A stretch of DNA of 60,809 nt. Origin: Pseudomonadota bacterium. Its GTDB lineage: Bacteria > CALINM01. The notes under the pieces are model-generated. The model saw nothing but the letters and a program-made list of their open reading frames with translations, was not told the DNA's origin and did no database searches. This document shows positions 4,715-59,855 of the stretch, piece after piece. The position numbers were made by a program, and so were the translations under genes. The first letter of the stretch is position 1, and each line of letters opens with the position of its first letter. The stretch covers positions 1 through 60,809 of the forward strand of contig JAOABK010000010.1 of NCBI GenBank assembly GCA_026418415.1. The letters are read 5' to 3'.

Positions 4715-4968
4715 AAGGGGTTATTGAGGTCTTTTGCTTGACTGCTTAGTTTTTGTTTTAGGTCTGAAATAGTAAGATTTTTTCTGATTAATGTAGGTAT
4801 AACGTATAAAAAGCCACTTAAGACGCCTAAGAGATAGCAAAGAATTATTACAAGAGCAAGAGAACCATCAAAGGTCTTATTAAAAAGAGTCACAGTTACA
4901 ATAGTGGAATTTTGAATAGCAAATACAACAACGATTATTGATATTAGCAATAATATTATAAGCTTCAC
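4711..4968 (-). CDS. lapA: LapA-domain (DUF1049) small membrane protein
   Basis: This 85-residue protein has two hydrophobic segments (residues about 2-20 and 35-60). The motif FAIQNSTIVTVTLFN after TM1 is typical of the LapA/DUF1049 family, whose E. coli member helps assemble LPS-regulating complexes. The C-terminus is a short charged helix. It is the first gene of the operon with phoB and phoR and overlaps phoB by 4 bases, an unusual partner for a phosphate two-component system. The start is GTG with no Shine-Dalgarno, and the predicted transcription start falls on the start codon itself. Confidence 0.75.
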   Translation of the reverse strand: MKLIILLLISIIVVVFAIQNSTIVTVTLFNKTFDGSLALVIILCYLLGVLSGFLYVIPTLIRKNLTISDLKQKLSSQAKDLNNPL

Positions 4969-4974
4969 AAAAAA

Positions 4975-5003
4975 ATTTTAACAGCAAAGGTTAATATTGT
5001 CAA
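4975..5003 (-). promoter_or_regulatory. Sigma-70 promoter of lapA-phoB-phoR; predicts a leaderless mRNA
   Basis: Reading leftward, TTGACA (4998-5003) and TAAAAT (4975-4980) are separated by exactly 17 bases. Six bases lie between the -10 element and the GTG start at 4968, so +1 should be the G of GTG. No ribosome-binding site exists upstream. Confidence 0.7.
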
Positions 5004-5031
5004 TAAACAAGAAACTTTTTAATAGGAATTA

Positions 5032-5060
5032 TTGACAAAGAGTAAATTCTAAAATACTAT
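5032..5060 (+). promoter_or_regulatory. Sigma-70 promoter of the pilus/secretion operon
   Basis: TTGACA (5032-5037) and TACTAT (5055-5060) are 17 bases apart. Transcription should begin near 5067 and give a leader of about 70 bases with a GGGAGGG ribosome site before the ATG at 5139. It is back-to-back with the lapA promoter. Confidence 0.65.
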
Positions 5061-5138
5061 TTAATTAAAAAAAATTTAATCAAGCCTAAAGTTTTTATTT
5101 TTTTGTACGATAAAATAAAAAAAGCAAGGGAGGGTATT

Positions 5139-5678
5139 ATGAGAATCAGGGAAGAAAAAGGATTTACTTTGATCGAAGTGATTGTAGTTGCTGCAATTAT
5201 TGCAGTCCTGGCAGGTATCATTGTACCATTAGTTTTCAAAGAGGTTGATGAGTCTAAAATTAGCAAGGCAAAGGCAGATTTAAAAACTATCCAAACCGCC
5301 ATTATGATGTTCTATAAGGATAATCAAAAATGGCCTAAATATGAAAATGATGGTGGAACATTGGTTGAGAGTGTGACACTGCTTAGAACGGATGGTGGTC
5401 TTCCCAATGATATTGATGCTTATTTTGATACCACTCTTATAAAAATGTTAAAGAATCACTTAATCGAGAATGGTGTAGGATATGATTCAAGATGGAAAGG
5501 CCCCTACATAAATGAGGCTAATCCAGATCCTTGGGGAAATTCTTATATAATTGATGTTGCTTCTTTGGGAACTCCTAATCCAGTATGGATTTTATCAGCG
5601 GGACCAAATGGCAAAGTAGAGACTCCTAGAAATGCCCAGTCCGTGCAAGGTGATGATATTGGTATTCGTTTACAGTAA
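5139..5678 (+). CDS. gspG: GspG-like major pseudopilin
   Basis: This is a 179-residue pseudopilin that would polymerise into a periplasmic filament after leader cleavage. The leader MRIREEKG is followed by FTLIEV, with the conserved Glu at position +5 of the mature protein, and then a hydrophobic N-terminal helix. The C-terminal half has PDPWGNSY and a SAGPNGKVETP...GDDIG region, matching the calcium-binding end of GspG. I chose the ATG at 5139 because GGGAGGG lies just upstream; the in-frame TTG at 5103 has no ribosome site and would lengthen the leader. It is the first gene of an eight-gene operon, 2 bases ahead of the ATPase gene. No prepilin peptidase gene is present in the window. Confidence 0.85.
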   Translation: MRIREEKGFTLIEVIVVAAIIAVLAGIIVPLVFKEVDESKISKAKADLKTIQTAIMMFYKDNQKWPKYENDGGTLVESVTLLRTDGGLPNDIDAYFDTTLIKMLKNHLIENGVGYDSRWKGPYINEANPDPWGNSYIIDVASLGTPNPVWILSAGPNGKVETPRNAQSVQGDDIGIRLQ

Positions 5679-5680
5679 AG

Positions 5681-7132
5681 ATGGCAAGAAAAAGGATTGG
5701 TGAGCTGCTTTTAGAAGCAGGTCTCATAACTAAAGAGCAGTTAGAGATAGCTTTAAAAGAACAAAAAAGAACTGGAGAGTTGCTTGGTTCGATATTATAT
5801 TCTTTAGGTTTCATATCACTAAAGGACTTGTACCAAGCACTCTCAGTTTCTCATGTAGATGCAGAAGAAAAAAAAGATTTCGATGTAGTGTCTGATATCC
5901 CAGAAGACATAGAACATTTAGTTAAACAAAGTCGAGAGAGTCTTTCTGGTGATAGGGCATTAAAACATGATGTACAGGCAACTTTACCACCTTTAATAAG
6001 ACTTGTTGAAAGAATAATTAATAATGGGATTGTAAAAGGAGCGACTGATGTGCATGTTGGGCCTGATATGAAAGGTGTTAGAGTAAGGTATAGGATTGAT
6101 GGACAGCTTCAGCATGGTATGCATCTTCCTATGGATTTATTGGGTCCTATTATTTCAAGAATTAAGATCATGGGTGGAATGAATATCGCTGAAACAAGAG
6201 TCCCTCAAGATGGTGGTACCGAGTTTATATATAGAGACAGGAAGCTTGATTTAAGAATTTCAACTTATCCAGTTTTAGGTGGAGAGAATGCAGTATTAAG
6301 AATTCTTGATAAGAGTCAAGTAAAAATTGGTTTAGAAAATTTAGGTTTTTTCCCAGATGATGCACAGTGGTTAGCAAAGATAGTTAGAGCACCTTATGGT
6401 ATGGTTATTGTTACAGGACCTACTGGTTCTGGAAAAACAACCACTTTATACTCATGTCTTTCCATTGTTAATTCAGTTAGCAAGAATATTTTTACAATTG
6501 AAGATCCAATTGAGTATCAGATGCCACTTGTTAGGCAATCTCAAGTGAATGTTAAAGCGGGTCTAACTTTTGCAACTGGTCTTAGGTCTATATTGAGGCA
6601 GGATCCAGATATAATTCTTGTTGGTGAGATAAGGGATATTGAAACTGCAGAATTAGCCTTAAGAGCTGCATTAACAGGACATCTTGTGTTTACAACATTG
6701 CATACGAATGATGCTATATCAAGTACACTAAGGTTAGTCGATATGGGTATAGAGCCATTTATTATTTCATCAACTTTAAATGCCATAGTTGCTCAAAGGT
6801 TGGTTAGGGTTCTATGTGAATACTGTAAAATGCCAATTTCAAAGGATAATCCTATTTATGAAAGGTTAGAAACAAATAAAACTCTATATACATCAAATGG
6901 TTGTACTCATTGTAATGAAACTGGGTATAAGGGAAGAACGGTAATTTATGAAATATTAGAAATAGATGATGAGATTAGAAAGTTAATAAATAAAAAAGCA
7001 GATCTAAACGAAATTAGAGAATATGCCTTTTCAAAGGGTTTTAAAGAGATGTTTAGTATCGGGTTAGAGAAGGTAAAACAAGGAATAACAACTTATGAAG
7101 AAGTTGCGAGTGTAACAAGAGCGGGTAACTGA
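5681..7132 (+). CDS. pilB: PilB/GspE-family assembly ATPase
   Basis: This is the cytoplasmic hexameric ATPase that powers pilin or pseudopilin assembly. The N-terminal region (residues about 5-55) is a MshEN/GspE-N-like fold with repeated GELLLEAGLIT / GSILYSLGFIS segments. The NTPase core has Walker A GPTGSGKT (residues 246-253), Walker B ILVGEIRD near 316, and the HIS-box THLTLHT-type region (TTLHTND). A zinc-binding CEYC...CTHC pair follows near residues 385-415. At 483 residues it is shorter than typical PilB (about 560), because the N-terminal part is reduced. Its stop overlaps the platform-protein start by one base. Confidence 0.92.
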   Translation: MARKRIGELLLEAGLITKEQLEIALKEQKRTGELLGSILYSLGFISLKDLYQALSVSHVDAEEKKDFDVVSDIPEDIEHLVKQSRESLSGDRALKHDVQATLPPLIRLVERIINNGIVKGATDVHVGPDMKGVRVRYRIDGQLQHGMHLPMDLLGPIISRIKIMGGMNIAETRVPQDGGTEFIYRDRKLDLRISTYPVLGGENAVLRILDKSQVKIGLENLGFFPDDAQWLAKIVRAPYGMVIVTGPTGSGKTTTLYSCLSIVNSVSKNIFTIEDPIEYQMPLVRQSQVNVKAGLTFATGLRSILRQDPDIILVGEIRDIETAELALRAALTGHLVFTTLHTNDAISSTLRLVDMGIEPFIISSTLNAIVAQRLVRVLCEYCKMPISKDNPIYERLETNKTLYTSNGCTHCNETGYKGRTVIYEILEIDDEIRKLINKKADLNEIREYAFSKGFKEMFSIGLEKVKQGITTYEEVASVTRAGN

Positions 7133-8331
7133 TGGCAAAGTATAGGTATAAAGCTGTTGATAAAACATCTTCTACTTTTGAAGGGGTGATTACTGCAAAA
7201 AATGAGAATGAAATTCAAAATGTTTTAAGAGAACAGGGATTATTATTAGTCGATATTAAAAAAGTTAATAATATTGATTTTTTTGGCATCAAAAGAATTA
7301 GATTAGAACATCTTTTTGAGTTTACTTATTACTTACAACTTTTCTTTACATCAGGACTATCATTAGTTACTGGTTTGCTAAGTCTTTCGAATCAAAAAAA
7401 TAAATATATCTCTTATATGTCAGAAATTGTTTATAAAGATGTATGTTCAGGGTTGTCACTTTCTTCTTCAATGGAAAAACATAAGGAAATTTTTCCAGAA
7501 TTTTATATGCAGATGATAAAGGCTGGTGAGAAGGCTGGAAATTTGGATAAAGTTTTTAATGATTTAATGGATTATATAAACTGGCAAATTGATTTAAAAA
7601 AAACTATTAGAAATGCACTCTTCTATCCAATTATGATTTTAACAGCGGTAATGGGCTTAATAGCTGTTCTTTTTGTGTTTGTGGTACCAAAACTTCAAAA
7701 GGTTCTTATATCTCTGAATGTTGAATTGCCACTTCCTACGAAGATAGTTATGGGTTTAGGAACATTTTTTAAAAGTTATTTTCTAATTTTCTGTATTATA
7801 TTGTTTTTTTTGTTTGTCTTACTAAAGGGCTTTTCGAAAACAAAAGAAGGCAAATTTATAATTGATGCAATTTTAGTTAAAATCCCTTTGATTTCTGAAT
7901 TTGTAAAGAAGATTAATTATTCAAGGTATTTCAAAACAGTTTCAACTCTATTTTCATCAGGTTTAAATGTAGAGCAAACATTTAATACTTCAGCAAGTGT
8001 GGTAACTAATTCCTTTATTTCTGAAAAAATGCATGAGATAACAGATAGTATTTTAAGAGGAGAGACAATCTCTAAAGCTATGATGAGAACAGGCATTTTC
8101 CCCGATTTTGTTTTGCAAATGGTTTCGGTAGGTGAAAAAACAGGGAATTTTGAAGATGTATCTAAAAAAATTTCAGAAGTGTTCGATAAGGAAGTTAAGG
8201 ATAGCGTGAAAAAAATTTTTGCTTTTATTGAACCAATAATAATTATGTTGCTTGGTGTTGTAGTCTTAATGGTAATGTTATCAGTGTTTTTGCCAATTTA
8301 TAAAATGTTAGGTGGAATAAGGGGAAGATGA
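7132..8331 (+). CDS. pilC: PilC/GspF-family inner-membrane platform protein
   Basis: This polytopic protein (399 residues) couples the assembly ATPase to filament extrusion. It shows the family layout: N-terminal YRYKAVDKT start, a first helical T2SSF domain, TM segments around residues 165-190 and 212-235, a second T2SSF repeat (with GEKTGNFEDVSKKIS mirroring GEKAGNLDKVFNDLM), and a final TM around 365-390. It overlaps the ATPase gene by one base and the next pseudopilin gene by four, so translation is coupled. Confidence 0.92.
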   Translation: MAKYRYKAVDKTSSTFEGVITAKNENEIQNVLREQGLLLVDIKKVNNIDFFGIKRIRLEHLFEFTYYLQLFFTSGLSLVTGLLSLSNQKNKYISYMSEIVYKDVCSGLSLSSSMEKHKEIFPEFYMQMIKAGEKAGNLDKVFNDLMDYINWQIDLKKTIRNALFYPIMILTAVMGLIAVLFVFVVPKLQKVLISLNVELPLPTKIVMGLGTFFKSYFLIFCIILFFLFVLLKGFSKTKEGKFIIDAILVKIPLISEFVKKINYSRYFKTVSTLFSSGLNVEQTFNTSASVVTNSFISEKMHEITDSILRGETISKAMMRTGIFPDFVLQMVSVGEKTGNFEDVSKKISEVFDKEVKDSVKKIFAFIEPIIIMLLGVVVLMVMLSVFLPIYKMLGGIRGR

Positions 8332-11012: not shown

Positions 11013-11013
11013 G

Positions 11014-11436: not shown

Positions 11437-11446
11437 GAGGTTTTTT

Positions 11447-13075: not shown

Positions 13076-13107
13076 TAAATTTGATATTTTTTTCTGACTG
13101 TGAAGTT

Positions 13108-13116: not shown

Positions 13117-13164
13117 ACCATCAATTTTAAAACCAAATTTATAAGGAGGAGTTGTATTTTCTTT

Positions 13165-13761: not shown

Positions 13762-13769
13762 ACTTTTTG

Positions 13770-14277: not shown

Positions 14278-14282
14278 ATTTT

Positions 14283-14864: not shown

Positions 14865-14893
14865 TTGACTTGTCTTTATCAATTTGATTTTAT
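14865..14893 (+). promoter_or_regulatory. Candidate sigma-70 promoter of fabH
   Basis: TTGACT (14865-14870) is followed 17 bases later by TTTTAT (14888-14893) within a longer TA run, so the exact -10 is uncertain. The leader before the ATG at 14909 would be under 15 bases, with only a weak GGG as ribosome site. Confidence 0.4.
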
Positions 14894-14908
14894 ATATATT
14901 GGGCTGAT

Positions 14909-15895
14909 ATGAGGAGAGTTGCTATTGTTGGAACGGGATCCTATGTTCCAAACAAAAGGCTTACTAATTTTGACTTAGAAAAAATCATTGATACAACAGA
15001 TGAATGGATTTATACAAGAACTGGCATTAAAGAACGAAGAATTGCTGATAAAAATGAAGCAACTTCAGATCTTTGTAAAATAGCCTGTGAAAGGGCTTTA
15101 AAAACAGCAGGAATTAAGCCAAATAAAATCGATTTAATAATACTTGCGACAATAACGCCAGATACCCATTGTCCTTCTGGCGCCAATTGGTTAGAGGCAA
15201 AATTAGGTTGCGAACATGCGGTATCCTTTGATATCACCGCTGCTTGCACAGGTTTTATATTTGCACTCCATGTAGCTGAAAAACTAATTTTTTCTGGGGC
15301 TTATAAAAATGTTCTCGTTGTTGCTGGCGAAGTAATGTCTCGCGTTGTAAATTGGGAGGATAGAGAGAGTTGTATTTTATGGGGTGATGGCGCTGGCGCT
15401 GTTGTGCTTACTGAGTCAAACATAGGCGCTGAATTAAGGTCAACCCATGTTCATACCGAAGGCAAAAGTGGTGGAACACTTCTTATGCCCGGTGGAGGTT
15501 CAAAAACAACACCTATATCCCACGAATCAGTTCATATGAAACTTCATTATCTTAGGATGATAGAGGCAAATAAATCTTTTAAAGTAGCGGTTACCAAGTT
15601 TGTAGAAGCTGTAAAAGAGGCAGTTGAGTTTAATGGTTATGATATAAAGGATATAGACTGGATAATTCCCCATCAAGCCAATAAGAGGATTCTTCAAGCA
15701 ATGGCTGAAAAACTTGATTTTCCTCTTGAGAGGGTTTATTTGACTATTGAAAAATATGGCAATATATCTTCAGCAAGTGTTGCAATTGCTTTAGATGAAG
15801 CAGTAAGAAGTGGTAGTGTGAAGAGAGATGATATTGTTGTGTTAACTGCTTTTGGTGGTGGACTTACATGGGGAAGTGCTCTAATTAGGTGGTAA
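14909..15895 (+). CDS. fabH: Beta-ketoacyl-ACP synthase III
   Basis: FabH condenses acetyl-CoA with malonyl-ACP to start fatty acid synthesis. The full catalytic triad is present: C113 in DITAACTGF, H255 in WIIPHQANKR and N285 in EKYGNISSAS. The N-terminus VGTGSYVPNKRLTN and the TRTGIKERRIA segment are typical. Length (328) is normal. It stands alone, not in a fab cluster. It converges directly on the acyl-CoA dehydrogenase gene with no spacer, which makes coordinated lipid roles plausible but unproven. Confidence 0.95.
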   Translation: MRRVAIVGTGSYVPNKRLTNFDLEKIIDTTDEWIYTRTGIKERRIADKNEATSDLCKIACERALKTAGIKPNKIDLIILATITPDTHCPSGANWLEAKLGCEHAVSFDITAACTGFIFALHVAEKLIFSGAYKNVLVVAGEVMSRVVNWEDRESCILWGDGAGAVVLTESNIGAELRSTHVHTEGKSGGTLLMPGGGSKTTPISHESVHMKLHYLRMIEANKSFKVAVTKFVEAVKEAVEFNGYDIKDIDWIIPHQANKRILQAMAEKLDFPLERVYLTIEKYGNISSASVAIALDEAVRSGSVKRDDIVVLTAFGGGLTWGSALIRW

Positions 15896-17156: not shown

Positions 17157-17185
17157 TTGAAAAAAAAAGGCATTTCCTTTATAAT
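17157..17185 (+). promoter_or_regulatory. Sigma-70 promoter of queA
   Basis: TTGAAA (17157-17162) and TATAAT (17180-17185) are 17 bases apart. The predicted start near 17192 leaves a leader of only about 4 bases before the ATG at 17196. An apparent upstream TTG start codon for queA is actually the -35 element. Confidence 0.75.
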
Positions 17186-17195
17186 TTTCTTTTCT

Positions 17196-18212
17196 ATGAA
17201 GATTTCTGAATTTAATTATTTTTTACCTGAAGAATTAATTGCTCAAAAGCCTGCAGACAAAAGAAGTGAGTCAAAACTTTTAGTGCTTTATGAGTCTGGT
17301 AAAATCTTACACAAATCTTTTAGGGATATTATAGATTTTTTTGAAAAGGATGATGTTATTGTATTGAATGATACACGTGTTTTTAAAGCGAGAGTTTATG
17401 GGCATAAAAGAACTGGAGGTAAGGTAGAGCTTCTTTTTTACAAGGACCACTTTTCTGGCAAGTATTATGCATTAGTAGGGGGTAGGGTTGGAGAAAGTTC
17501 AATAGTCCTAATAAATGGGTATGAAATTAAAATATTCAAGGACAAGGAAAACTTATATCTTGTTGATGAACCAGCTGAACTTGTCGAATTAATAATGGAG
17601 CGTTATGGAGAAATACCGTTACCACCTTATATAAAAAGGCCAGTTGGTAAAGATGATGAAGAGAGATACCAGACAGTTTTTAGTAGAAAACATGGTGCAG
17701 TTGCAGCACCAACTGCTTCACTTCACTTTGATATCGAATTGTTAAATAAGCTTAAAAATAAAGGAGTTAACTTAGTATATGTTACTCTTCACGTAGGACC
17801 AGGTACATTTTTACCAATAAAGACGGAAAGTGTTGAAGAACATAAAATGATGCCAGAATACTGTGAAATACCTTCTGAAACTGCTGAAGTAATTAATAAA
17901 GCTGTTTGTTCGAAAAGAAATGTATTGTTTTGTGGAACTACTGTTGTAAGAGCAATAGAATGGGCTTCTGAAGATAAAGAAGTAAAGCCAAAAAGGGGTT
18001 ATGCTGATTTGTATATCTATCCTGGTTATAATTTTAAGGTAGTTAGAAATATGCTTACAAACTTTCACTTGCCTAACTCGACTCCCCTTGTTCTTGTGTG
18101 TGCTCTTGTGGGCAAAGATTTAATATTAAAAGCTTACAATGAAGCTATAGAGAGGAAATATAGATTTTACAGTTATGGTGATGCGATGTTGATTTGGAAG
18201 GGTAGTTATTAA
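17196..18212 (+). CDS. queA: S-adenosylmethionine:tRNA ribosyltransferase-isomerase
   Basis: QueA transfers the ribosyl part of SAM to preQ1-modified tRNA, making epoxyqueuosine. The canonical N-terminus MKISEFNYFLPEELIAQ, the VLNDTRVFKARV motif, GAVAAPTASLHFD and the C-terminal TNFHLPNSTPLVLV are all present. The 338-residue length from ATG 17196 is normal. The in-frame TTG at 17157 would add 13 residues and coincides with the promoter -35 box, so it is rejected. There is no Shine-Dalgarno. It is followed directly by tgt, the previous step of the queuosine pathway. Confidence 0.95.
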   Translation: MKISEFNYFLPEELIAQKPADKRSESKLLVLYESGKILHKSFRDIIDFFEKDDVIVLNDTRVFKARVYGHKRTGGKVELLFYKDHFSGKYYALVGGRVGESSIVLINGYEIKIFKDKENLYLVDEPAELVELIMERYGEIPLPPYIKRPVGKDDEERYQTVFSRKHGAVAAPTASLHFDIELLNKLKNKGVNLVYVTLHVGPGTFLPIKTESVEEHKMMPEYCEIPSETAEVINKAVCSKRNVLFCGTTVVRAIEWASEDKEVKPKRGYADLYIYPGYNFKVVRNMLTNFHLPNSTPLVLVCALVGKDLILKAYNEAIERKYRFYSYGDAMLIWKGSY

Positions 18213-30664: not shown

Positions 30665-30693
30665 TTGCTTTTTTATGAACATTTATTCATAAT
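30665..30693 (+). promoter_or_regulatory. Promoter of the VKOR-thioredoxin gene; predicts a leaderless mRNA
   Basis: TTGCTT (30665-30670), a 17-base spacer and CATAAT (30688-30693). Six bases separate the -10 from the ATG at 30700, and no Shine-Dalgarno is present. Confidence 0.55.
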
Positions 30694-30699
30694 TTAAGT

Positions 30700-31593
30700 A
30701 TGAATCGGAGAATAGATCTTTTAAATAAGCTCTTTGTGTTTTTTTCTGTTGCAGGTATTTTACTTATTTCAGTCGAGCTAATTTTGAACTTCTTTGGTAA
30801 AAAACTATGTGAGACCGAAGGTTGCGAGCTTGTAGCTAAACAGGTTAGATATGGTGATTGGGTTATACTAATACTTGGCATATTCACCTTTTTTGCTTTA
30901 TTGATAACCTTTATTCTTTATTTGAAAAAAAATAAAGAAGGTAAAGGGGAAAAAGCAAATTTTTACAATTCCCTATGCTCCTATATTTTAATTATTTCCC
31001 TTGCGAGTGAAGGCTTTTTTACAGGTTATCAAGCCTTTCGCCTTTTTGTGCCCTGTTATTTTTGTTTGATAGTATTTACTTTAATAGTTATATTAAGTTT
31101 ACTAAAGCTAATGATGGGAGCGAAGGAGATGGTTGCGGGTTTTGGTGCATTTTTTGGTGTTTTCATGCTCTTCTACCTTGTTTTACCAGTAGATACAATA
31201 GGTAAATTGCCAGAAGAAAAACTCGTTATATTTTATAGTGAGAATTGTAAACACTGTAAGGAATTAATGAAAGAGTTAGAAGAAAAAAAGATTGAAATCC
31301 CTCATATACTTATAGATGACAACCCAAACTTCTTAAAAAACGTGGGTATAGATAAGGTGCCTGTTCTTTTTATTAATTTACCTGGCGAAAAGAGGTTTCT
31401 TGTAGGTTTAACAAATATAAGGGCCTATCTTTTCCCAGAATTAGAGAAAAGGGATGAAAAGAAAGCGAGTACAGAGAAAAATAAAATTAAAAAATCTCAA
31501 GAGCCCAAATCCATACTTGATTTAGCTCCAACTTCTCCTTTTTTGAAGCCACCTGAAGGGGCTTGTGATGAGACGAAAGAAGACTGTGATTAA
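30700..31593 (+). CDS. VKOR-like membrane protein fused to a thioredoxin-like domain
   Basis: The first 165 residues hold about five TM helices. A CETEGC pair (C37, C42) sits after TM1 and CYFC (C119, C122) at the start of TM4, the redox layout of bacterial vitamin K epoxide reductase homologues. A thioredoxin-like domain follows (about 173-245) with CKHC (C183, C186) and a cis-Pro-like VPVLF. The C-terminal tail is charged and ends [11 protein letters not shown]. Such fusions oxidise exported proteins using quinone. The assignment rests on Cys placement and topology, as overall similarity is weak. The next gene, 17 bases on, encodes a secreted hydrolase. Confidence 0.72.
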
Positions 31594-32423: not shown

Positions 32424-32999
32424 TTATTTGTTAAAGGCTATTTTGTAACTTTCCAGTTCTTTCATAATATTGTTATAACAATCTGGACATATACCATGTG
32501 ATATATGTGGAAGAACTGGTTTATTGAAAATTTTAAGGTATTTCACTGCTTTAGCTGTTTCCATCCAGGTTGTTTCATCTACCTTAATAGTTTTACAATA
32601 ACTGCACATTTTTAGAAAATTTCCTTCTCTTTTCACTATTTTTTTTAAAATGCTAACAGGTTTTCTTTTAACTTCTTTTTTTATTAGACTTTGAAACTCT
32701 ATTTTACCATTATCCAAAGGGATAATGGTTAGATCTAAAAATCTTTTTGTATCCGGACCGTCACACATTATTGGAATTGTTATTTCCTTTTTGAGTAATC
32801 TAACATGGTCTATAATTAGTTTGTATATGTGTTTAGTTTCAAAGTCTTTTATATACCGCCATAGGGGATTACCAAGTATATTTGTGGATTTATTATCCGG
32901 TAATCCATCATTTTCTAAAGCAAATTTATCCCAAGCCCCTTCGATACTGTAGATAATATCATCATTGTTAATCCTATATATGATTAAATTGTCATCCAT
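32424..32999 (-). CDS. PAS-like protein with C-terminal CxxC...CPxC module
   Basis: This 191-residue soluble protein has a PAS-like N-terminal part (residues about 1-115) that resembles a small ligand-sensing domain. The C-terminal module carries C132, C135, a Trp at 145, H168, C171 and C174, in the pattern CSYCK...W...SHGICPDC. The same module ends the protein encoded divergently at 33096. It probably binds a metal such as zinc, though heme or an Fe-S cluster is possible. No output domain is present. The start has an extended -10 six bases upstream and no Shine-Dalgarno. Confidence 0.7.
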   Translation of the reverse strand: MDDNLIIYRINNDDIIYSIEGAWDKFALENDGLPDNKSTNILGNPLWRYIKDFETKHIYKLIIDHVRLLKKEITIPIMCDGPDTKRFLDLTIIPLDNGKIEFQSLIKKEVKRKPVSILKKIVKREGNFLKMCSYCKTIKVDETTWMETAKAVKYLKIFNKPVLPHISHGICPDCYNNIMKELESYKIAFNK

Positions 33000-33005
33000 A
33001 GTTTA

Positions 33006-33014
33006 AGGATAACA
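33006..33014 (-). promoter_or_regulatory. Extended -10 promoter of the PAS/Cys-module gene; leaderless
   Basis: Reading leftward, TG-t-TATCCT is an extended -10 with six bases to the ATG at 32999. No ribosome site or clear -35 is visible. Confidence 0.5.
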
Positions 33015-33080: not shown

Positions 33081-33089
33081 TGCTAAAAT
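33081..33089 (+). promoter_or_regulatory. Extended -10 promoter of the sensor gene at 33096; leaderless
   Basis: TG-c-TAAAAT is an extended -10; six bases separate it from the ATG at 33096. No Shine-Dalgarno is present. Confidence 0.55.
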
Positions 33090-33095
33090 CAAGCC

Positions 33096-34820
33096 ATGAA
33101 ATTTTTAAAGTTTTTAATCTTTTTAGCACTTTATGTTTTTTTGACTGAAGAAAATCTTCTTTCCTTTCAAGATAAAAGGAAAATTCTTATTATCCATTCC
33201 TATCACTCAGGTTATGAATGGACGGATGGTATACAAAAGGGATTGTTGGATGTTCTAAGTAAAAACAATATTGAATTATTTTTTGAATTTATGGATTTAA
33301 ATAGGCAAAAGAAAACTGAAGAATATCTGAGCAAATTAGAAGAGTTTTATAAACTTAAATATGGAAATCAAAAAATAGATCTGCTTATTTTGGTTGATGA
33401 TGATGCTCTTGAATTTGTGCTTAAAAGAAGAGATAGGCTTTTCAATAATATCCCTATAGTTTTTTGCGGGATTAATGATTTTAAACCCGATATTATAAGG
33501 GGGCATAAAAATATAACAGGGGTAAATGAGGAAAAATCAATCAAAGAGACAATAAAATTAGCATTAAAAATATCTGGCAATCCAAAAAAGGTTTATGTTA
33601 TTGCAGGTGATAGATTATCGGAGAGAAGAAATTTAGAGCAGTTTAAGAGTGAGGCTAAGACATTATTAAAAGGAGTTGAGGTCAGTTACTTAAATACTTT
33701 AGAATTTGAGGAAATATTAAAACAGGTATCTTCCTTAGACAAGAAAGACCTTATATTTTATTTATCCTACCTTAGGTCTCCTCTCGGCAAGAGTTACACA
33801 AATGAAGAAAACTTAAAAAAGTTGAATGAAGCTACCCAGGCTATGATTTTCACAGTATCAGATCACATGGTTAAGAATGGAGTTATTGGTGGCAAGGTGA
33901 CGTATTCTTATGCCCAAGGAGAAACAGCGGGAAGACTTGCATTAAAGATCCTTTCTGGAACCAGACCCGATGATATACCCGTAGAAATGAAAAGTCCCAA
34001 TAGGTATCTTTTTGATGGACAGGCGCTTTTAAAACATAATATACCCTTAGCAATTTTGCCTCAGGATTCAATTATAATTAATAAATCAGTAGAAAGTATT
34101 TTTAGTGATTACAAAAGGGATATAGAAAAGGGTTTTTTTGGTTATGATTTATTTAAAAATCATGGAACAGTAATGCTTATAATAGATCCAAAGACTGGAA
34201 CAATTATAGATGCTAATGATAGAGCGAAGTTTTTTTATGGTTATCAGCAACTAATTGGTATGAAAATACAGGAAATAAACACACTGACTGAGGATCAAGT
34301 CAAAGAAGAGATGAGAAAGGCAAAGGAGCTTAAAAGAAATTATTTCAATTTTAGGCATAGGCTTGCAAACGGTGAAATAAGAGATGTAGAGGTGTATTCC
34401 TATCCAATAAGATTAAAAGATATGCCTTTATTGTTTTCAATAATTTTTGATGTTACTGACAAACTTTTAGCTGAGAAAAAGAATAAAGAAGAAGAAAAGA
34501 AAATTCTATATACATTTATCGCCCTTTCAGTAATTTCTATAGCCTTTCTTATTATGTTACTAATTTATTTATTGAAAAGAAGGTTGTATGAAAAGGAGCT
34601 TCTCGATAAAAATAAGAAACTTGAGGAAGCCCAATCGGAAATAAAAACTTTAAAGGGGATCATTCCTATTTGTATGTATTGTAAAAAGATAAGAGATGAT
34701 GCGGGTTACTGGAATCAATTAGAAAAATATATAACTGAACATACAGATGCACTTTTTAGCCATGCCCTATGTCCCGATTGTGCTGATAAATTTTTAAAAG
34801 ATTTCATGGATAAAAAATAA
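33096..34820 (+). CDS. Membrane sensor: periplasmic-binding-like + PAS + TM + Cys module
   Basis: This 574-residue protein has a signal-like N-terminus and an ABC-substrate-binding-like domain (residues about 28-325) of the PF04392 type, starting ILIIHSYHSGYEWTDGIQKG. A PAS-like domain follows (about 355-455), then a TM helix (about 470-493), a short coiled coil and the Cys module: C526, C529, H556, C559, C562 (ICMYCKKIRDDAGYW...SHALCPDC). There is no kinase, GGDEF, EAL, HTH or MCP output. The PAS lies before the TM and so may be extracytoplasmic. It may signal through partner binding by the Cys module. The Cys module is shared with the divergent gene. Confidence 0.75.
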   Translation: MKFLKFLIFLALYVFLTEENLLSFQDKRKILIIHSYHSGYEWTDGIQKGLLDVLSKNNIELFFEFMDLNRQKKTEEYLSKLEEFYKLKYGNQKIDLLILVDDDALEFVLKRRDRLFNNIPIVFCGINDFKPDIIRGHKNITGVNEEKSIKETIKLALKISGNPKKVYVIAGDRLSERRNLEQFKSEAKTLLKGVEVSYLNTLEFEEILKQVSSLDKKDLIFYLSYLRSPLGKSYTNEENLKKLNEATQAMIFTVSDHMVKNGVIGGKVTYSYAQGETAGRLALKILSGTRPDDIPVEMKSPNRYLFDGQALLKHNIPLAILPQDSIIINKSVESIFSDYKRDIEKGFFGYDLFKNHGTVMLIIDPKTGTIIDANDRAKFFYGYQQLIGMKIQEINTLTEDQVKEEMRKAKELKRNYFNFRHRLANGEIRDVEVYSYPIRLKDMPLLFSIIFDVTDKLLAEKKNKEEEKKILYTFIALSVISIAFLIMLLIYLLKRRLYEKELLDKNKKLEEAQSEIKTLKGIIPICMYCKKIRDDAGYWNQLEKYITEHTDALFSHALCPDCADKFLKDFMDKK

Positions 34821-35333: not shown

Positions 35334-36716
35334 TTATGGTATATCATTAGGTTTTTTTATACCATATTTTCCAAGCCTATACTGGAGAGTTCTGTATGTT
35401 ATTCCCAATATTTTGGAAGCTTTGCTCATATTCCACCCCGTTTTGTTCATAGCATCTATTATCAAATCCCTCTCTATTTCATCTAAAGATTTTCTTTCTT
35501 TGGTTATTTTTATTTCCCTATCATCTACATTAGGGGGGGGTATAAAAGTAGTTTGAATAATACTTGATATCACATGCTCATCTATAACTTCGTTGTCAGA
35601 GAGTATTACAGCTTTCTGCACAACTGATTCAAGCTCCCTTATATTGCCAGGCCAGTTATAATCTAATAGAAGTTTAATTGCGCCAGAGGTAAAAAACTTA
35701 TTGTCCACATGTGCTAAATGTTTATATTTATCTAAGAAATAGTTTGCCAGTATTGGTATATCGCTACTTCTTTCTCTTAAAGCTGGAAGCTTGATGGAAA
35801 AGATATTTAATCTGTAAAACAGATCAGCTCTGAATTTGCCATCTTTTATTCTTCCCTCTAAATCTACATTTGAAGCAGAAATTATTCTTACATCAACATG
35901 TATAGGATTTGTTGAACCGAGGGGATATATTTCTTTGTTTTGTAAAAATCTTAATAACTTTACTTGTGTCTGTAATGGTACTTCTGAGATTTCATCAAGA
36001 AAGATTGTGCCACCAGATGCTGCCTCAAAAATGCCTTTCTTCCTTCCCATAGCACCTGTGAATGCACCAGGTAAATACCCAAAAAGCTCACTTTCAATAA
36101 GATTCTCTGGCAGAGCAGCACAATTAACTGGAATGAAAGGATTATTTTTTCTGGGGCTTATATTGTGTATTGCTCTTGCTACCATTTCTTTACCTGTGCC
36201 ACTCTCTCCAGTTATAAGAACTGTTGCATCTAAAGGTGCGATTTTTAAGATTAGTTTTATCACATTTTTAAAAGATGGATGTTCTCCTATCATTCCTTCG
36301 AAAGCTTCTTTTGAAGAAATTCTTGAAACTAAAAATTTTCTTTCCTTTAATAGGTTTGTTCTCTCAATAGCTTTTCTGGTAACTAATACAACCTGTTCTT
36401 TTTTTAGAGGTTTAGTAATATAGTCAAAAGCACCATGCTTGATTGCATAAACTGCAGAATCAATGCTACCGTGTCCTGTGATTATTACAACTGATGTTTC
36501 TGGAGAGATTTGGGTTGCTTCCTTTAGAAGTTGAATTCCATCCATTTTTGGAAGTTTTAGGTCCGTAATTAATACATCAATCTCCTCATTTTGAAGAATT
36601 TTTAAAGCTTCTTCAGCTGTTGCAGAGGTTAGTGTATTATAAGACTCTTTTTGTAAAATATAACTTAATAACTCCCTTTGGTTTTTTTCATCATCAACAA
36701 TTAGAATCTTATTCAT
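35334..36716 (-). CDS. NtrC-family sigma-54-dependent response regulator
   Basis: The 460-residue regulator has a receiver domain (D9, D52 phospho-site in LITDLKLPKMDG, K102), an AAA+ domain with Walker A GESGTGKE (170-177), the GAFTGA loop that contacts sigma-54 (217-222) and Walker B GGTIFLDE, and a Fis-type HTH at the end (NMSKASKILGITYRTLQYRL). It should be phosphorylated by the kinase that overlaps its start by 4 bases. The sigma-54 promoter 100 bases beyond its end is the obvious candidate target. Confidence 0.94.
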   Translation of the reverse strand: MNKILIVDDEKNQRELLSYILQKESYNTLTSATAEEALKILQNEEIDVLITDLKLPKMDGIQLLKEATQISPETSVVIITGHGSIDSAVYAIKHGAFDYITKPLKKEQVVLVTRKAIERTNLLKERKFLVSRISSKEAFEGMIGEHPSFKNVIKLILKIAPLDATVLITGESGTGKEMVARAIHNISPRKNNPFIPVNCAALPENLIESELFGYLPGAFTGAMGRKKGIFEAASGGTIFLDEISEVPLQTQVKLLRFLQNKEIYPLGSTNPIHVDVRIISASNVDLEGRIKDGKFRADLFYRLNIFSIKLPALRERSSDIPILANYFLDKYKHLAHVDNKFFTSGAIKLLLDYNWPGNIRELESVVQKAVILSDNEVIDEHVISSIIQTTFIPPPNVDDREIKITKERKSLDEIERDLIIDAMNKTGWNMSKASKILGITYRTLQYRLGKYGIKKPNDIP

Positions 36717-38134
36717 ATATTTGCTGGAATTGTAATAATAAATTCTGCTCCCTTTTTATATTCTTTATTCAACCAAATGTCTCCACCATGTTCAAGAAGA
36801 ATCTTTTTTGTGAAAGCTAATCCAAGCCCCATCCCTGTATCTTTAGATGAAAAATAGGGTTCAAAGATTTTGTCAGATATAATATCTGGTATTCCCGCTC
36901 CAGAATCTTTAAAACTTATATAAATTTTATCATGTTTTTTACTTGTATTAACTATAATTAAACCATTACTTTTTATAGAATCTATTGAATTTAAAAAGAG
37001 GTTAATAAAACATCCCGCTAATTTTTCTTTATCGCCGAGAATATTTATGTCTTTATCAATGTTCATTTCAATGTTTATGTTTAAATCCTCCACCTTTGGT
37101 TTAATAATATTCTCAATATCTTTAAAAAGTTGAAATAAATTTAAATATTCCATATTTAGTTTTAAAGGTTTGCCGTATTCTAAAAAATGAATCACCATAT
37201 TATTTATTCTATCTATTTCTTTACCAACGGATTCTAATAATTCTATCGTTTTACTTTCTATTTTTGTTTCTTTTAATTCATCTTTAACTTGGTCAATTGC
37301 CAAGTTAATGAAATTCAAAGGATTTTTTATCTCATGTGCTATGGCTGAAGATAATTGTCCGATTTGATATATGTGCTCCATTTCTTTTATTTTATTTTCT
37401 AAATTTTTTCTTTCCTTAAGTTTTTCTATCATTTGATTAAAATTTATAACCAGTTCTTTAATTTCTGGGCCTAAAGAGATATCTACATTAATAGGGGAAA
37501 GGTCACCCTTCGATACCCTTTGAGTAGCTTCAACTATCATATGGACAGGCTTTGTATATTTATCTGCCAGGTATATTATTATTAAAGTACCTAAACTAAA
37601 AATAATTAGAGTCATAAAAAGTCTTAAATAAAAGTTTCTTTTTTGGACCTCTGTAAGGTTTTCCATATGCATTACAATGTTTATGTATCCATAATGTTCA
37701 TCACCTATAATAATTGGAACATTAATTGTCTTCATATATTCTTCTTTGGTTTTTACACCTAATTCAGCTTTTATGAGAAAATCAGAATCTTTGATGCTTT
37801 TGGCTATAAGTCCTACCTTTTTGGGATTTGTACTCGCTATGATTTCTTTACTCTCCGATAAAATTGATATTTCGTTGATCCCCTTTTTCTTTAATCTCAT
37901 AATTAGGTCTTTAAGAATTTCTGGATTTTTCTGTTCTTCACTGGTTAATTTTTCAACGCTTATTTGAATTGCTTTTGTAAGCTCGTCTATGTTTTCTTCC
38001 ATTTCTTGTATCAATCTTTTTTGTGCGTTTTGACTAATAATAAAGAGAGCGATTGAAGAGAGAATGAAAAGAGAGGTCATTGTAAGTATTAGTTTAGTCT
38101 TTAACCCCATCTTACCGATTAAAAATTTAATCAT
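36713..38134 (-). CDS. NtrB/ZraS-like sensor histidine kinase
   Basis: The 473-residue kinase has TM1 (residues about 15-34), a periplasmic Cache-like sensor (about 40-165), TM2 (about 168-190), a HAMP domain (about 190-245), H267 in SSAIAHEIKNPLN, an N-box FINLFLNSID, DSGAGIP and GMGLGLAFTKKI. The HEIKNPL box type pairs with NtrC-class regulators. The signal is unknown. The start codon has a -10-like TAAAAT six bases upstream and no Shine-Dalgarno. It begins the leftward kinase-regulator-small protein set, and its promoter is divergent from the dcw cluster. Confidence 0.92.
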   Translation of the reverse strand: MIKFLIGKMGLKTKLILTMTSLFILSSIALFIISQNAQKRLIQEMEENIDELTKAIQISVEKLTSEEQKNPEILKDLIMRLKKKGINEISILSESKEIIASTNPKKVGLIAKSIKDSDFLIKAELGVKTKEEYMKTINVPIIIGDEHYGYINIVMHMENLTEVQKRNFYLRLFMTLIIFSLGTLIIIYLADKYTKPVHMIVEATQRVSKGDLSPINVDISLGPEIKELVINFNQMIEKLKERKNLENKIKEMEHIYQIGQLSSAIAHEIKNPLNFINLAIDQVKDELKETKIESKTIELLESVGKEIDRINNMVIHFLEYGKPLKLNMEYLNLFQLFKDIENIIKPKVEDLNINIEMNIDKDINILGDKEKLAGCFINLFLNSIDSIKSNGLIIVNTSKKHDKIYISFKDSGAGIPDIISDKIFEPYFSSKDTGMGLGLAFTKKILLEHGGDIWLNKEYKKGAEFIITIPANI

Positions 38135-38140
38135 TCTATT

Positions 38141-38146
38141 ATTTTA
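38141..38146 (-). promoter_or_regulatory. -10 element of the NtrB-like kinase gene; leaderless
   Basis: Reading leftward, TAAAAT ends six bases before the ATG at 38134. The -35 is poor and no ribosome site is present, so this rests on the spacing pattern shared with other genes here. Confidence 0.4.
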
Positions 38147-38187: not shown

Positions 38188-38215
38188 TTGACAAATTTTA
38201 TGAAGAGGATAATAT
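38188..38215 (+). promoter_or_regulatory. Sigma-70 promoter of the dcw cluster
   Basis: TTGACA (38188-38193) and TAATAT (38210-38215) are separated by 16 bases. The start would be near 38222, inside the MraZ boxes. Confidence 0.75.
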
Positions 38216-38251
38216 TGGTAAAAAGTGGTATAAAATGGTAAAAAGGTGGTA
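38216..38251 (+). promoter_or_regulatory. MraZ operator: four TGGTA boxes
   Basis: TGGTA occurs at 38216, 38226, 38236 and 38247, with 10, 10 and 11 base periods. MraZ binds short TGG-type direct repeats at one-turn spacing upstream of its own gene. These boxes cover the predicted transcription start, and the last one lies in the AAGGTGG ribosome site, so bound MraZ should block transcription. Confidence 0.8.
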
Positions 38252-38255
38252 AAAA

Positions 38256-38705
38256 TTGTTTTTAGGTAGGTATGAGCATACCATAGATGAAAAGGGCAGG
38301 ATTAGCATACCTGCTAAGTTTAGGGAAATTTTGAAGGTTAAATATGATGAAAGATTAGTAATAACAACTATGGATGGGTGCCTATATGCTTATCCCCATC
38401 AGGAGTGGAAAGAAATTGAAGAAAAAGCATCAAATTTCGATGTGATAAAACCAGAAGATAGACAGTTTATGAGGATATTTTTCTCAGGTGCTATGGAATG
38501 TATTGTCGATAAATTAGGAAGAATTGTTTTGCCACCAACTCATAGGGAGTATGCAGGTATTGTAAAGGATGTTATTTTTGCTGGTATGTTAAAAAGAATT
38601 GAAATATGGTCAAAAGAAAGGTTTGAAGAGAGGATAATAAAGCCTTCTCTAGATGCTTCCATATCTACAGCAATTAGCGAGATGGCGAGCAGACTGGGAA
38701 TATGA
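38256..38705 (+). CDS. mraZ: Transcriptional regulator MraZ
   Basis: MraZ is a ring-shaped AbrB-fold repressor of the dcw cluster. Two copies of the fold are visible: GRYEHTIDEKGRISIPAKFRE and the second with DKLGRIVLPPTHREYAGI. The 149-residue length is normal. The start is TTG 38256, six bases after AAGGTGG. A TTG fits, as homology begins exactly there (MFLGRYEHTID). It overlaps rsmH by 4 bases. Confidence 0.95.
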   Translation: MFLGRYEHTIDEKGRISIPAKFREILKVKYDERLVITTMDGCLYAYPHQEWKEIEEKASNFDVIKPEDRQFMRIFFSGAMECIVDKLGRIVLPPTHREYAGIVKDVIFAGMLKRIEIWSKERFEERIIKPSLDASISTAISEMASRLGI

Positions 38706-52498: not shown

Positions 52499-52506
52499 AT
52501 AGAAAT

Positions 52507-54595: not shown

Positions 54596-54609
54596 AAGGG
54601 GGTGGAAAT

Positions 54610-55680: not shown

Positions 55681-55686
55681 ATTTTT

Positions 55687-57285
55687 ATGTCCAATATTTA
55701 TGAAAGAAGGAAGGAGGTAATAAGAAAGGAAAAAGGGATAAAAAGTAGAAGAGGGAGAAAAAACGTAGTCCTATTTTATCCTAATACTTATTCTATTGGT
55801 ATTAGCACTCTTTCACTTCATAGAATATCAGAAATTATTCAGGAATTTGGTGAGATTGGATTTATAAGATATTTTCTCGAGGACGAAGAGGGGGAAAAAA
55901 GAATATTTCCCCTTGATGATCTTCTTGACCTTTCAGATATATCTGCAATTGCTTTTTTCCTATCCTATGAGAATGATTATTTTAATGTTATAAAAGCATT
56001 GAGATTACTTGGTATTTCTCCATTTTCTAAAGAGAGAAGAGATTTACCAATAATTATTGGAGGCGGTGTAGCAGTTACTGATAATCCAGAGCCATTAGCT
56101 GAGATTTTTGATGCTCTATTTATTGGAGAAGCAGAAGATAGTTTCAGAGAATTTCTTAAGTTACTATTAGAAAAAAATAGCAAAGAGTCACTGCTCAGGG
56201 ATTTAGAAAATATTGATGATATTTATCTTCCTGATAAAACAAGTTTTGAATACGATGAAGAAGGTTATATAAGAAACATTACTGGAAGAAGGGTTAAAAG
56301 GGGAGTTTACGAAAATTTCAACCAGGATTTTTCAAAATCAGTTTTTTTAACAGAAATTGGAGAATTTGGAGATACATTTTTAATTGAATTAACAAGAGGA
56401 TGTCCATCTAAATGTAAATTTTGCATATCAAGAAGTTTATATTCTCCTCTTAGATTCGCCAATTTTGATAAAGTAAAGGAAATTATTGAAGAACAAAGGG
56501 ACATTAAAAAATTTGGTCTTTTAGGGGCATCTGTTTCATTTCATCCGTACATAAAACAAATAATGGAGTTTTTATTAGAAAGAGGCAAAGAATTTTCTTT
56601 GTCCTCATTAAGAGCGGATTTGCTTGATTATGATTTTATATCCATTCTTAAAAAAGGGGGTATAAAAACAATTACAATAGCACCTGAATCTGGAAGTGAA
56701 AGATTAAGAAAACTTATAAACAAAGGGATAAATCTTGAGGATATCGAGAAGGCCATTGATAACTCATTGAAAGTTGATATAGAAAATTTAAAATTATACT
56801 TTATGATAGGTCTTCCCTTTGAGACTTGGGAAGATATAGATGATATAGTTAAAGTTTCAAGTCTTATAAGACATTTGGAAAATAAAAATAAAAAGAGGTT
56901 TAAAAAAGTAAGTTTCAGTATAAGCACTTTTGTGCCAAAACCTTTTACTCCCCTGCAATGGGCACCTTTTTCTGATATTAAAGAAACGAATGAAAAAATT
57001 AAGTATTTAAGAAAAAAGTTAACCAGTAAAGGGGTTAATGTGATCTATGATCTTCCAAAATGGGCAAGAATACAGACAATTTTAAGTAGAGGCGATAGGA
57101 AGATTACTCCTATTTTATTTAAAGGAAGTGATGATAGACAGCTTTTTACAGTAAATATTAATCCCTCCTTTTATGCAGAAAGGGAGAGAGGAGTTGATGA
57201 AATATTCCCATGGGAAGTTGTTGATTCTGGAATTGAAAGGCAAAATCTTTTATCTCAGTGGTTGGAATATAAAAAAGAGTCTTAA
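55687..57285 (+). CDS. B12-binding-type radical SAM protein
   Basis: This 532-residue protein has a cobalamin-binding-like Rossmann domain in the first 160 residues (FYPNTYSIGISTLSLH, LPIIIGGGVAVTDNPEPLAEIFDALFIGEAE) and a radical SAM core with C239, C243 and C246 (CPSKCKFC). The His for B12 base-off binding (DxHxxG) is not seen, so cobalamin binding is uncertain. The combination matches the class annotated as TIGR03960-type or B12-binding radical SAM proteins of unknown reaction. It starts 6 bases after ftsZ, and may be co-transcribed with the dcw cluster. Confidence 0.85.
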   Translation: MSNIYERRKEVIRKEKGIKSRRGRKNVVLFYPNTYSIGISTLSLHRISEIIQEFGEIGFIRYFLEDEEGEKRIFPLDDLLDLSDISAIAFFLSYENDYFNVIKALRLLGISPFSKERRDLPIIIGGGVAVTDNPEPLAEIFDALFIGEAEDSFREFLKLLLEKNSKESLLRDLENIDDIYLPDKTSFEYDEEGYIRNITGRRVKRGVYENFNQDFSKSVFLTEIGEFGDTFLIELTRGCPSKCKFCISRSLYSPLRFANFDKVKEIIEEQRDIKKFGLLGASVSFHPYIKQIMEFLLERGKEFSLSSLRADLLDYDFISILKKGGIKTITIAPESGSERLRKLINKGINLEDIEKAIDNSLKVDIENLKLYFMIGLPFETWEDIDDIVKVSSLIRHLENKNKKRFKKVSFSISTFVPKPFTPLQWAPFSDIKETNEKIKYLRKKLTSKGVNVIYDLPKWARIQTILSRGDRKITPILFKGSDDRQLFTVNINPSFYAERERGVDEIFPWEVVDSGIERQNLLSQWLEYKKES

Positions 57286-57288
57286 TTA

Positions 57289-58530
57289 CTACCTCGGCTT
57301 TTTTAGAAGCATTGAAAGAATAATGGCCAATCCTGCTAATATTGCAGACATATAAAAACTTGATGAAAAACTCCCCGTTTTTTGGGCCATTATTCCCGCT
57401 ATTGCTGGTCCTGTTATTTGTCCTAATCCAAAAATAAAAGTTATAAAGCCAAAAGCTTTTGCTGAGCTCTGAGGACCTACATAATCTCCTACTGCTGCTG
57501 CCATTATAGTAGGGATACTCCAGGCAACAAATCCATAAAAGAAAATAGATAGATACAAAAATATGCCAGGGAGTTTGGTTGCAACAAGTAAGTAGGAGAG
57601 ACACTGAAAGGTAAATACAATAATTAATCCGGTCTTTCTACCAAATTTATCAGAAATAATACCAAAAACTGGACCTGAAAAGAGACTTAGTAGTCCCACC
57701 CATGACCAAAATGTTCCTGCAACGCTCTCAGAGAATCCCCTTTCTTTAACGAGTGTTGTAACAATAAATGTTGCGTATATTACATAAGTATAGCCAAAAA
57801 GAAAATAAATAATGCCTAAGTGATAGATAATTTTATTTCTATAAATGCTTTGAGAATCCCCCTTTTTATCAGATATTAGGTTATGGTTTTGTTTCTCACT
57901 TTCGTGTCCCAGTGGCTCCAACCCCATATCTGAGGGTCTATTTCTAAGAACTATTAAACATAGAAATGCAATAATTATCACAATTGCTCCTAAAAAGAAC
58001 CAACTAAAACGCCATCCTTCACTACCTCTAATTTGGTTAACATAAGGTATAAATAAACCTGAAAATATTATGGCGAAGCCACTTCCAATAGTCATTAATC
58101 CAGCGCCTTTACCTCTATTTTTTTTTGTAAACCATGAAGAAACAAGGCTCATCATCGAAACATTTGCTCCACCACTTCCAAGCCCAGTTATCCAGTATAA
58201 AATTAATAAAACCAAAAAAGCGTTTGAAAAACTAAGCAATAACATGCTTATACCTACTATGAGTAATGAAAAGAATATAAAAATTCTTTGCCCGAGCTTT
58301 GAAACTATAAAACCGCTGAAAAATACAGAGATTAAATATCCTATAAAATTGCCAGTGCTTATAAATCCCATTTGAGAATAGTTAAGATTAAGTGTTTTGG
58401 CCATAGAAGGAAGAAGCATGCCAAGAGCAAAACGTCCCAAACCTAAACAGGCAATAATACAAAAGGTTCCAGTTACTGCTATTACCCATGCATAATGTAT
58501 GGGTAATTTTCTGACTTTTAAGTCATTCAT
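57289..58530 (-). CDS. Major facilitator superfamily transporter
   Basis: The 413-residue protein has 12 hydrophobic helices and the OxlT/YbfB-type features: HYAWVIAVTGTFCIIACLGLGRFALGMLLP at the N-terminus, GFIVSKLGQRIFIFFSL (loop 2-3), and the second-half GIISDKFGRKTGLIIV motif. It probably exports or imports small organic anions, substrate unknown. Its promoter has an extended -10 with six bases to the ATG. The gene converges on the radical SAM gene with a 3-base gap and no terminator. Confidence 0.9.
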   Translation of the reverse strand: MNDLKVRKLPIHYAWVIAVTGTFCIIACLGLGRFALGMLLPSMAKTLNLNYSQMGFISTGNFIGYLISVFFSGFIVSKLGQRIFIFFSLLIVGISMLLLSFSNAFLVLLILYWITGLGSGGANVSMMSLVSSWFTKKNRGKGAGLMTIGSGFAIIFSGLFIPYVNQIRGSEGWRFSWFFLGAIVIIIAFLCLIVLRNRPSDMGLEPLGHESEKQNHNLISDKKGDSQSIYRNKIIYHLGIIYFLFGYTYVIYATFIVTTLVKERGFSESVAGTFWSWVGLLSLFSGPVFGIISDKFGRKTGLIIVFTFQCLSYLLVATKLPGIFLYLSIFFYGFVAWSIPTIMAAAVGDYVGPQSSAKAFGFITFIFGLGQITGPAIAGIMAQKTGSFSSSFYMSAILAGLAIILSMLLKKPR

Positions 58531-58536
58531 TTATTA

Positions 58537-58564
58537 AATATAACATTGTTTTAAAAAAAATCAA
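58537..58564 (-). promoter_or_regulatory. Promoter of the MFS gene; predicts a leaderless mRNA
   Basis: Reading leftward: TTGATT, a 16-base spacer, and TG-t-TATATT (-10 at 58537-58542), then six bases to the ATG at 58530. No ribosome site is present. Confidence 0.6.
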
Positions 58565-58593
58565 ATAAAATTGAGGGTGTATGCAAATTTTTG

Positions 58594-58602
58594 TGTTAAA
58601 AT
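58594..58602 (+). promoter_or_regulatory. Extended -10 promoter of mtaB; near-leaderless
   Basis: TG-t-TAAAAT is an extended -10 element; 8 bases separate it from ATG 58611, so the leader would be 0-2 bases. No Shine-Dalgarno is present. Confidence 0.5.
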
Positions 58603-58610
58603 ATTAAAAT

Positions 58611-59855
58611 ATGTTGAAAAAAGTTTTTGTTACCTTTTCTGGCTGTAAGGTTAATCAATTTGAAAGAGGTTTACTATTAGAATACTTTCTCAAGGAAGGG
58701 TTTTATGTTACTGAAAAAATTGACGAAGCAGATTATATAGTATTCAATACCTGCGCAGTTACTGAGAAAGCAGAATCTGGATGCAAGCAATTAATTAGAA
58801 GGTTTAATAAGTTGAATCCCGAAGCAAAAATTATATTAACTGGTTGCTATGCTGAAAAAGAGAGAGATAATCTTTTGAGGTTTAAAGGTGTATACAAAGT
58901 TTATTCAAATGAGGAAAAACTCAATATCCCAGCTTATTTGTTAAATAAGGGGGTTAAAATTTTAAATGCCCTTGATTTTGAGTATAAAAGAACCTTTAAG
59001 GATAGATCGAGAGCATTTTTAAAGATACAGGATGGCTGTGATTCATATTGTAGCTACTGCATTGTTCCCCTTTTAAGAGGAAAGCCTGTGAGCATGCCTC
59101 TCGAGAGGGTTTTAAAAAATTTAGATAATTTATTGGAAGAGAATGAAGTAGTTCTTACTGGCATTCATTTAAGCAAATGGGGGAAGGACTTCAACAAATC
59201 TTTGGATGACCTAATGCTTTCTATAAGCATGAGAAACTATCCATTCAGGATAAGATTGTCTTCTCTTGAGTGTAATGAGCTTTCAGAAAATCTCTTGAAA
59301 ATATTAAGAGATATGAAAAATTTTTGTCATCACTTCCATATACCATTACAGAGTGGTTGTAACAAAATATTAAAACTTATGAAACGTCAATATGATACAA
59401 GCTTTTTTGAAAGAAAAATAGAACAGATAAGAAAGTATTTTTCCAATGCCTGCATAGGAGTTGACATTATTGTGGGCTTTCCAGAGGAAAATCAAAATGA
59501 TTTTATGGAGACCTTTGGTTTTGTTAATAATTTACCAATTGATTATTTGCACATTTTTACATACTCACCCCGTGAAGGGACAGAATCCTATAATTTACCG
59601 AATAGAGTAGAGAGAGAAATTACCAAAGAACGATATAATAAATTAAAGGATATTGATAATGCTAAAAGAAAAGCATTAATAAAAAGATTTGAGAACAAAG
59701 AAGTTTTATGTATACCCGATAAGAAAATTAATGAAAATTATTACAGAGTACTCTCACGAGAATATTTAAAATTGTTTATAAAAGACAAAATACCACAAAA
59801 AGAATTTAGAGCAAAAATTATAAATATCGAGACTATGGAAGCAATGATTGTTTAA
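58611..59855 (+). CDS. mtaB: MtaB-like tRNA methylthiotransferase (MiaB family)
   Basis: This radical SAM enzyme adds a methylthio group to t6A37 in tRNA. The N-terminal UPF0004 domain has C12, C48 and C79 (second 4Fe-4S cluster). The radical SAM cluster is C143, C147, C150 (GCDSYCSYC). The TRAM-like end is reduced. The motif VFNTCAVTEKAE points to the MtaB/YqeV clade rather than MiaB or RimO. The 414-residue length fits. Confidence 0.92.
   Translation: MLKKVFVTFSGCKVNQFERGLLLEYFLKEGFYVTEKIDEADYIVFNTCAVTEKAESGCKQLIRRFNKLNPEAKIILTGCYAEKERDNLLRFKGVYKVYSNEEKLNIPAYLLNKGVKILNALDFEYKRTFKDRSRAFLKIQDGCDSYCSYCIVPLLRGKPVSMPLERVLKNLDNLLEENEVVLTGIHLSKWGKDFNKSLDDLMLSISMRNYPFRIRLSSLECNELSENLLKILRDMKNFCHHFHIPLQSGCNKILKLMKRQYDTSFFERKIEQIRKYFSNACIGVDIIVGFPEENQNDFMETFGFVNNLPIDYLHIFTYSPREGTESYNLPNRVEREITKERYNKLKDIDNAKRKALIKRFENKEVLCIPDKKINENYYRVLSREYLKLFIKDKIPQKEFRAKIINIETMEAMIV

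Follow-up and report, generated by a model that had tools for sequence, protein, structure and literature searches.

A survey of 953 bacterial genomes found leaderless genes of the "TA-led" type in 207 of them (Zheng et al., 2011; PMC3160421). In Deinococcus-Thermus a TANNNT motif located approximately 6-7 bp before the open reading frame (ORF) drives leaderless mRNA, as supported by reporters and transcription data (PMC12340547). GeneMarkS-2 predicts leaderless transcription in 21.6% of bacterial species and for up to 40% of transcripts, according to the figures cited in PMC9581028; as presented there it is a prediction class only. The "new phylum CALINM01", to which this genome belongs, has been reported from an alkaline hot-spring enrichment, with a share of 2% (PMC12730654). 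The lineage was not spotted in the group table of the Zheng et al. survey, and our literature search found no earlier report of leaderless initiation in the phylum.

Our data suggest that, in this genome, ordinary sigma-70-type promoters lie directly before coding sequences and very probably yield mRNAs with no leader or a minimal one (0-4 nt). The case is assigned here to the known -10-adjacent leaderless genes of bacteria. As in the genomes surveyed by Zheng et al. (2011), a Pribnow-like box stands directly before the start codon and such genes occur alongside Shine-Dalgarno (SD)-led ones, but the share of genes concerned (approximately 4-8%) is well below the Deinococcus-Thermus average in that survey (39.4%) and close to that of Firmicutes (4.2%). 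It is likewise smaller than the approximately 30% of ORFs described for Deinococcus-Thermus by PMC12340547, and the present case differs further in that it concerns a low-GC genome and is a prediction from sequence.

Genomes and Gene Classes

The window (the whole stretch of DNA under analysis, 60,809 nucleotides; GC 32.6%) is one stretch (C11) of the source genome G000 (2.03 Mb, 161 contigs), which was compared with two further genomes of the phylum, G001 (same genus) and G002 (same family). For the genome-wide test 1.59 of the 2.03 Mb of G000 was stitched from stretches, and 1501 genes were called with our own coding-potential caller, which places starts without the use of upstream signals and does not give curated calls. 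Three classes were formed: 5'-proximal genes, either divergent or following a same-strand gene at a distance of 100 bases or more (378 genes); genes following one at 31-99 bases (177 genes); and operon-internal genes (30 bases or less, or overlapping; 900 genes). The gap is the number of bases between the -10 hexamer and the start codon.

Start-Adjacent Promoters in the Window

The initial annotation had singled out six genes in the window (lapA and those starting at 30700, 32999, 33096, 38134 and 58530) with a -10-like hexamer six bases before the start codon, together with mtaB (gap 8) and queA (gap 10) as near matches; all six sites are present in the sequence as read, and both near matches are correct (Table 1). 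The promoter of lapA reads as near-consensus (TTGACA-17-TAAAAT-6-GTG), and the fabH-like gene at 14909 is an additional site which had been overlooked. TANNNT occurs at exactly gap 6 in 4 of the 12 no-SD promoter-proximal genes of the window (binomial P ~0.0015, a post hoc value since the window was chosen for the feature). The VKOR-thioredoxin gene has a same-strand neighbor only 41 bases upstream, rendering its promoter-proximal status less certain, yet genes in its distance class (31-99 bases) show the same peak (see below). The PAS/Cys gene is without a Pfam match and without an ortholog with a readable start in G001 and G002. The 10-base gap of queA, between TATAAT and ATG, is entirely pyrimidine in the window.

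Table 1. Start-adjacent promoter elements in the window, with gaps at orthologs in two relatives (coordinates in the -10 column are those of the hexamer).
Gene	Coordinates	Strand	-35	Spacer	-10	Gap	Start codon	Gap in G001	Gap in G002
lapA (85 aa, LapA_dom)	4711..5003	-	TTGACA 5003-4998	17	TAAAAT 4980-4975	6	GTG 4968-4966	6	6
fabH-like (ACP synthase III domains)	14872..15895	+	TTGTCT 14872-14877	17	TATATT 14895-14900	8	ATG 14909	5	
queA	17157..18212	+	TTGAAA 17157-17162	17	TATAAT 17180-17185	10	ATG 17196	10	10
VKOR-thioredoxin	30688..31593	+			CATAAT 30688-30693	6	ATG 30700	6	
PAS/Cys	32424..33014	-			TG-t-TATCCT 33011-33006	6	ATG 32999		
Sensor (ABC_sub_bind + PAS)	33081..34820	+			TG-c-TAAAAT 33084-33089	6	ATG 33096		10
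NtrB-like histidine kinase	36713..38146	-			TAAAAT 38146-38141	6	ATG 38134	7	6
MFS transporter	57289..58545	-			TG-t-TATATT 58542-58537	6	ATG 58530	6	6
mtaB (UPF0004 + radical SAM)	58594..59855	+			TG-t-TAAAAT 58597-58602	8	ATG 58611	10	

Genome-Wide Spacing and Promoter Marks

Among the 225 5'-proximal genes of G000 lacking an SD, TANNNT was found at gaps 6, 7 and 8 in 34, 31 and 26 cases, compared to approximately 10 per gap elsewhere. The sum (91 vs 30.5 expected; Poisson P 7.7e-19), set beside that for no-SD genes inside operons (32 vs 23.3 expected), brings together three features of the -10-adjacent leaderless class, i.e., a start-adjacent -10, no SD and a transcript-leading position. 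Exact TATAAT at these gaps was found 18 times (1.4 expected; P 3e-14). Strong hexamers at gaps 4 to 11 numbered 4, 0, 22, 21, 13, 13, 10 and 2, a series that rises abruptly at 6 and trails off to 10. The -10 had initially been placed exactly six bases before the start codon, which holds for all six genes named; since the genome-wide peak spans gaps 6-8 with a tail to 10, this exactness is a small-sample accident.

The same peak was seen where a same-strand neighbor lies 31-99 bases upstream (45 at gaps 6-8 vs approximately 12 expected), and at distances of 100 bases or more from such a neighbor it was modest (P 0.008). The composition-corrected, genome-wide excess that had been proposed as a check is strong, yet there is none in SD-led 5'-proximal genes, which are depleted at gaps 6-8 (TANNNT 5 vs 21.8 expected) and carry their -10-like hexamers around gaps 29-31 instead, or in a small Escherichia coli control (200 kb, 43 genes, same method; 2 vs 2.2 expected). 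In operon-internal no-SD genes TATAAT at gaps 6-8 was found 7 times (1.2 expected), which points either to internal promoters or to flaws in the operon classes. The peak was weak in G001, for which the 205 kb analyzed held only 32 qualifying genes and was underpowered. Divergent intergenic regions were shorter at leaderless-type genes (median 106 vs 138 bases, P 0.02), a difference that is suggestive only.

The gap 6-8 hexamers belong to real promoters, as judged by marks that played no part in selecting them. Compared to TANNNT located 45-69 bases upstream, they were enriched in a -35 TTG at spacer 17 (18/89 vs 17/424, P 1.6e-6) and in the extended TG (21/89 vs 32/424, P 4e-5), and a match of at least 5/6 to TATAAT was found in 54/89 (vs 129/424). 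A C at -1 of the start codon was present in 23/89 gap 6-8 genes and 28/285 other 5'-proximal genes (P 2.5e-4).

A -10 weight matrix puts the excess over gaps 6-10 among no-SD 5'-proximal genes at approximately 64 genes (bootstrap 50-79), a rough 4.3% of 1475; with TANNNT and the 31-99-base class added it rises to approximately 111 genes, again a rough figure, which corresponds to 7.5% of all genes and to one in five of the 555 transcript-leading genes. Leaderless or nearly leaderless genes would thus make up roughly 4-8% of all genes and about one fifth of the transcript-leading ones, so the earlier description of leaderless translation as common is fair for the latter but concerns a minority overall. 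The accompanying statement that genes inside operons have ribosome sites holds as a tendency: an SD is present in 66% of operon-internal and 40% of 5'-proximal genes. The translation parts looked for are ordinary, with IF3, S1-domain and sigma-70 genes present in all three genomes and an intact anti-SD (CCTCCTT) in the 16S of G002, the only one of the three in which the search found a 16S gene.

Proposed Mode of Initiation and Alternatives

What is observed is the spacing with its excess, the accompanying promoter marks and, at several genes, the conservation of this spacing; we infer from these where transcription starts, how the ribosome engages and that the mode is used in the cell. Sigma-70 RNA polymerase would initiate 7-9 bases past the -10 element, and at gaps 6-8 transcription would then begin on the initial nucleotide of the start codon, giving a leaderless mRNA, while gaps 9-10 would give a leader of 1-4 nt or a start at the codon. 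Transcription start positions 6, 7, 8 and 9 after the -10 account for about 3, 70, 23 and 4% of cases in E. coli (PMC5730371), a distribution that predicts a sharp onset at gap 6. The 70S ribosome would initiate at the 5'-terminal AUG or GUG without SD pairing, and it is mainly 70S ribosomes that are known to bind leaderless mRNAs, at their 5'-terminal AUG (PMC9031893). SD-led initiation would operate in parallel. A point against this scheme is that gaps 9-10 would require an unusually distant transcription start or a short leader.

These longer gaps, with 13 and 10 strong hexamers, together with queA, whose gap of 10 recurs in all three genomes, are what a model of short real leaders can draw on, in which transcription begins ahead of the codon and weak, non-SD, unstructured leaders of approximately 1-10 nt replace a strict 5'-terminal AUG. 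We regard this as improbable, as the onset at gap 6 is abrupt, with zero strong hexamers at gap 5, and the enrichment of C at -1 fits a pyrimidine-purine start on the codon itself. Less probable still is an origin of the hexamers by chance in AT-rich upstream DNA, or through selection for a start region that is AT-rich and unstructured. TANNNT is frequent everywhere in a genome of 32.6% GC, but only about one third of the gap 6-8 count is reached in dinucleotide-preserving shuffles or at the flanking gaps, and the peak is position-specific, does not occur in SD-led genes and is accompanied by a -35 at spacer 17; chance AT-richness was rejected on the position-specific excess over both references. 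Miscalled start codons, with true starts downstream behind an SD and hence ordinary leaders, were similarly rejected as highly implausible: start positions were indeed set without experimental data, but only 4/89 genes, no larger a share than among other genes, had an in-frame start with an SD in the next 30 codons, a downstream start would not put an in-frame ATG 6-8 bases past a -10, and the lapA, MFS, VKOR and queA proteins align from residue 1 in the relatives.

Conservation of Spacing in Relatives

The preferred reading, start-adjacent promoters giving leaderless or nearly leaderless mRNAs, can also be set against the orthologs, although spacing comparisons are few. From the aligned upstream regions, spacing appears conserved at lapA, the MFS gene, VKOR, the NtrB-like kinase and queA and variable at the sensor, fabH and mtaB (Table 1). 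The lapA promoter takes the form TTGACT-16-TAGAAT-6-ATG in G001 and TTGACA-17-TAGAAT-6-ATG in G002, the MFS gene has TG-t-TATATT-6-ATG in both relatives with differing gap sequences, and VKOR retains CATAAT-6-ATG in G001. The NtrB-like protein has an 80% identical match in G001 (contig number 28), and its start codon has moved in G002. The hexamer is TATAAT both at fabH in G001 and at the sensor in G002. Outside the window, ortholog gaps agree at C161:60834 (6/6) and C77:8738 (8/8). Comparative backing is thinnest for the PAS/Cys gene and the sensor.

At lapA, MFS, NtrB, VKOR and queA the gap sequence changes between genomes, while its length is constant or shifted by one, which is the pattern expected under selection on spacing. 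It is conceivable, if rather doubtful, that a stable set of leaderless genes exists in this near-unsampled phylum in which the -10-to-AUG distance is itself selected, with the conserved gap of 10 at queA providing a 0-4 nt leader for start-site control.

The mtaB gene looks SD-led in G002 (G002:C87), where its gene context is different, and is of leaderless type in the window and in G001; it may have changed its mode of initiation with its position in the operon.

Significance and Further Features of the Window

If read correctly, these promoters add a lineage represented here by three genomes to the users of leaderless initiation, a mode whose ancestral status is debated and on which the addition bears. 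Gene finders that expect an SD may misplace starts in CALINM01, and the -10-to-start spacing would allow transcription starts to be predicted from sequence only; we found no report of an isolate of this lineage.

Two further features of the window were observed. Positions 1-689, 1903-2119 and 2137-2292 are 98-99% identical to G002 (C140, C148), which is of a different genus and to which other matches are mostly at approximately 65-74%. These pieces hold a PhoU gene (13-681) and a 4Fe-4S gene (1956-2291), and this end of the contig could be a chimera, a contaminant or a recent acquisition by transfer. Within 38200-38705, a row of GTGGTAAAAA-like repeats at intervals of approximately 10 bases lies upstream of mraZ (PF02381, TTG start) and recurs in G001 and G002; these are possible MraZ operator boxes ahead of mraW.
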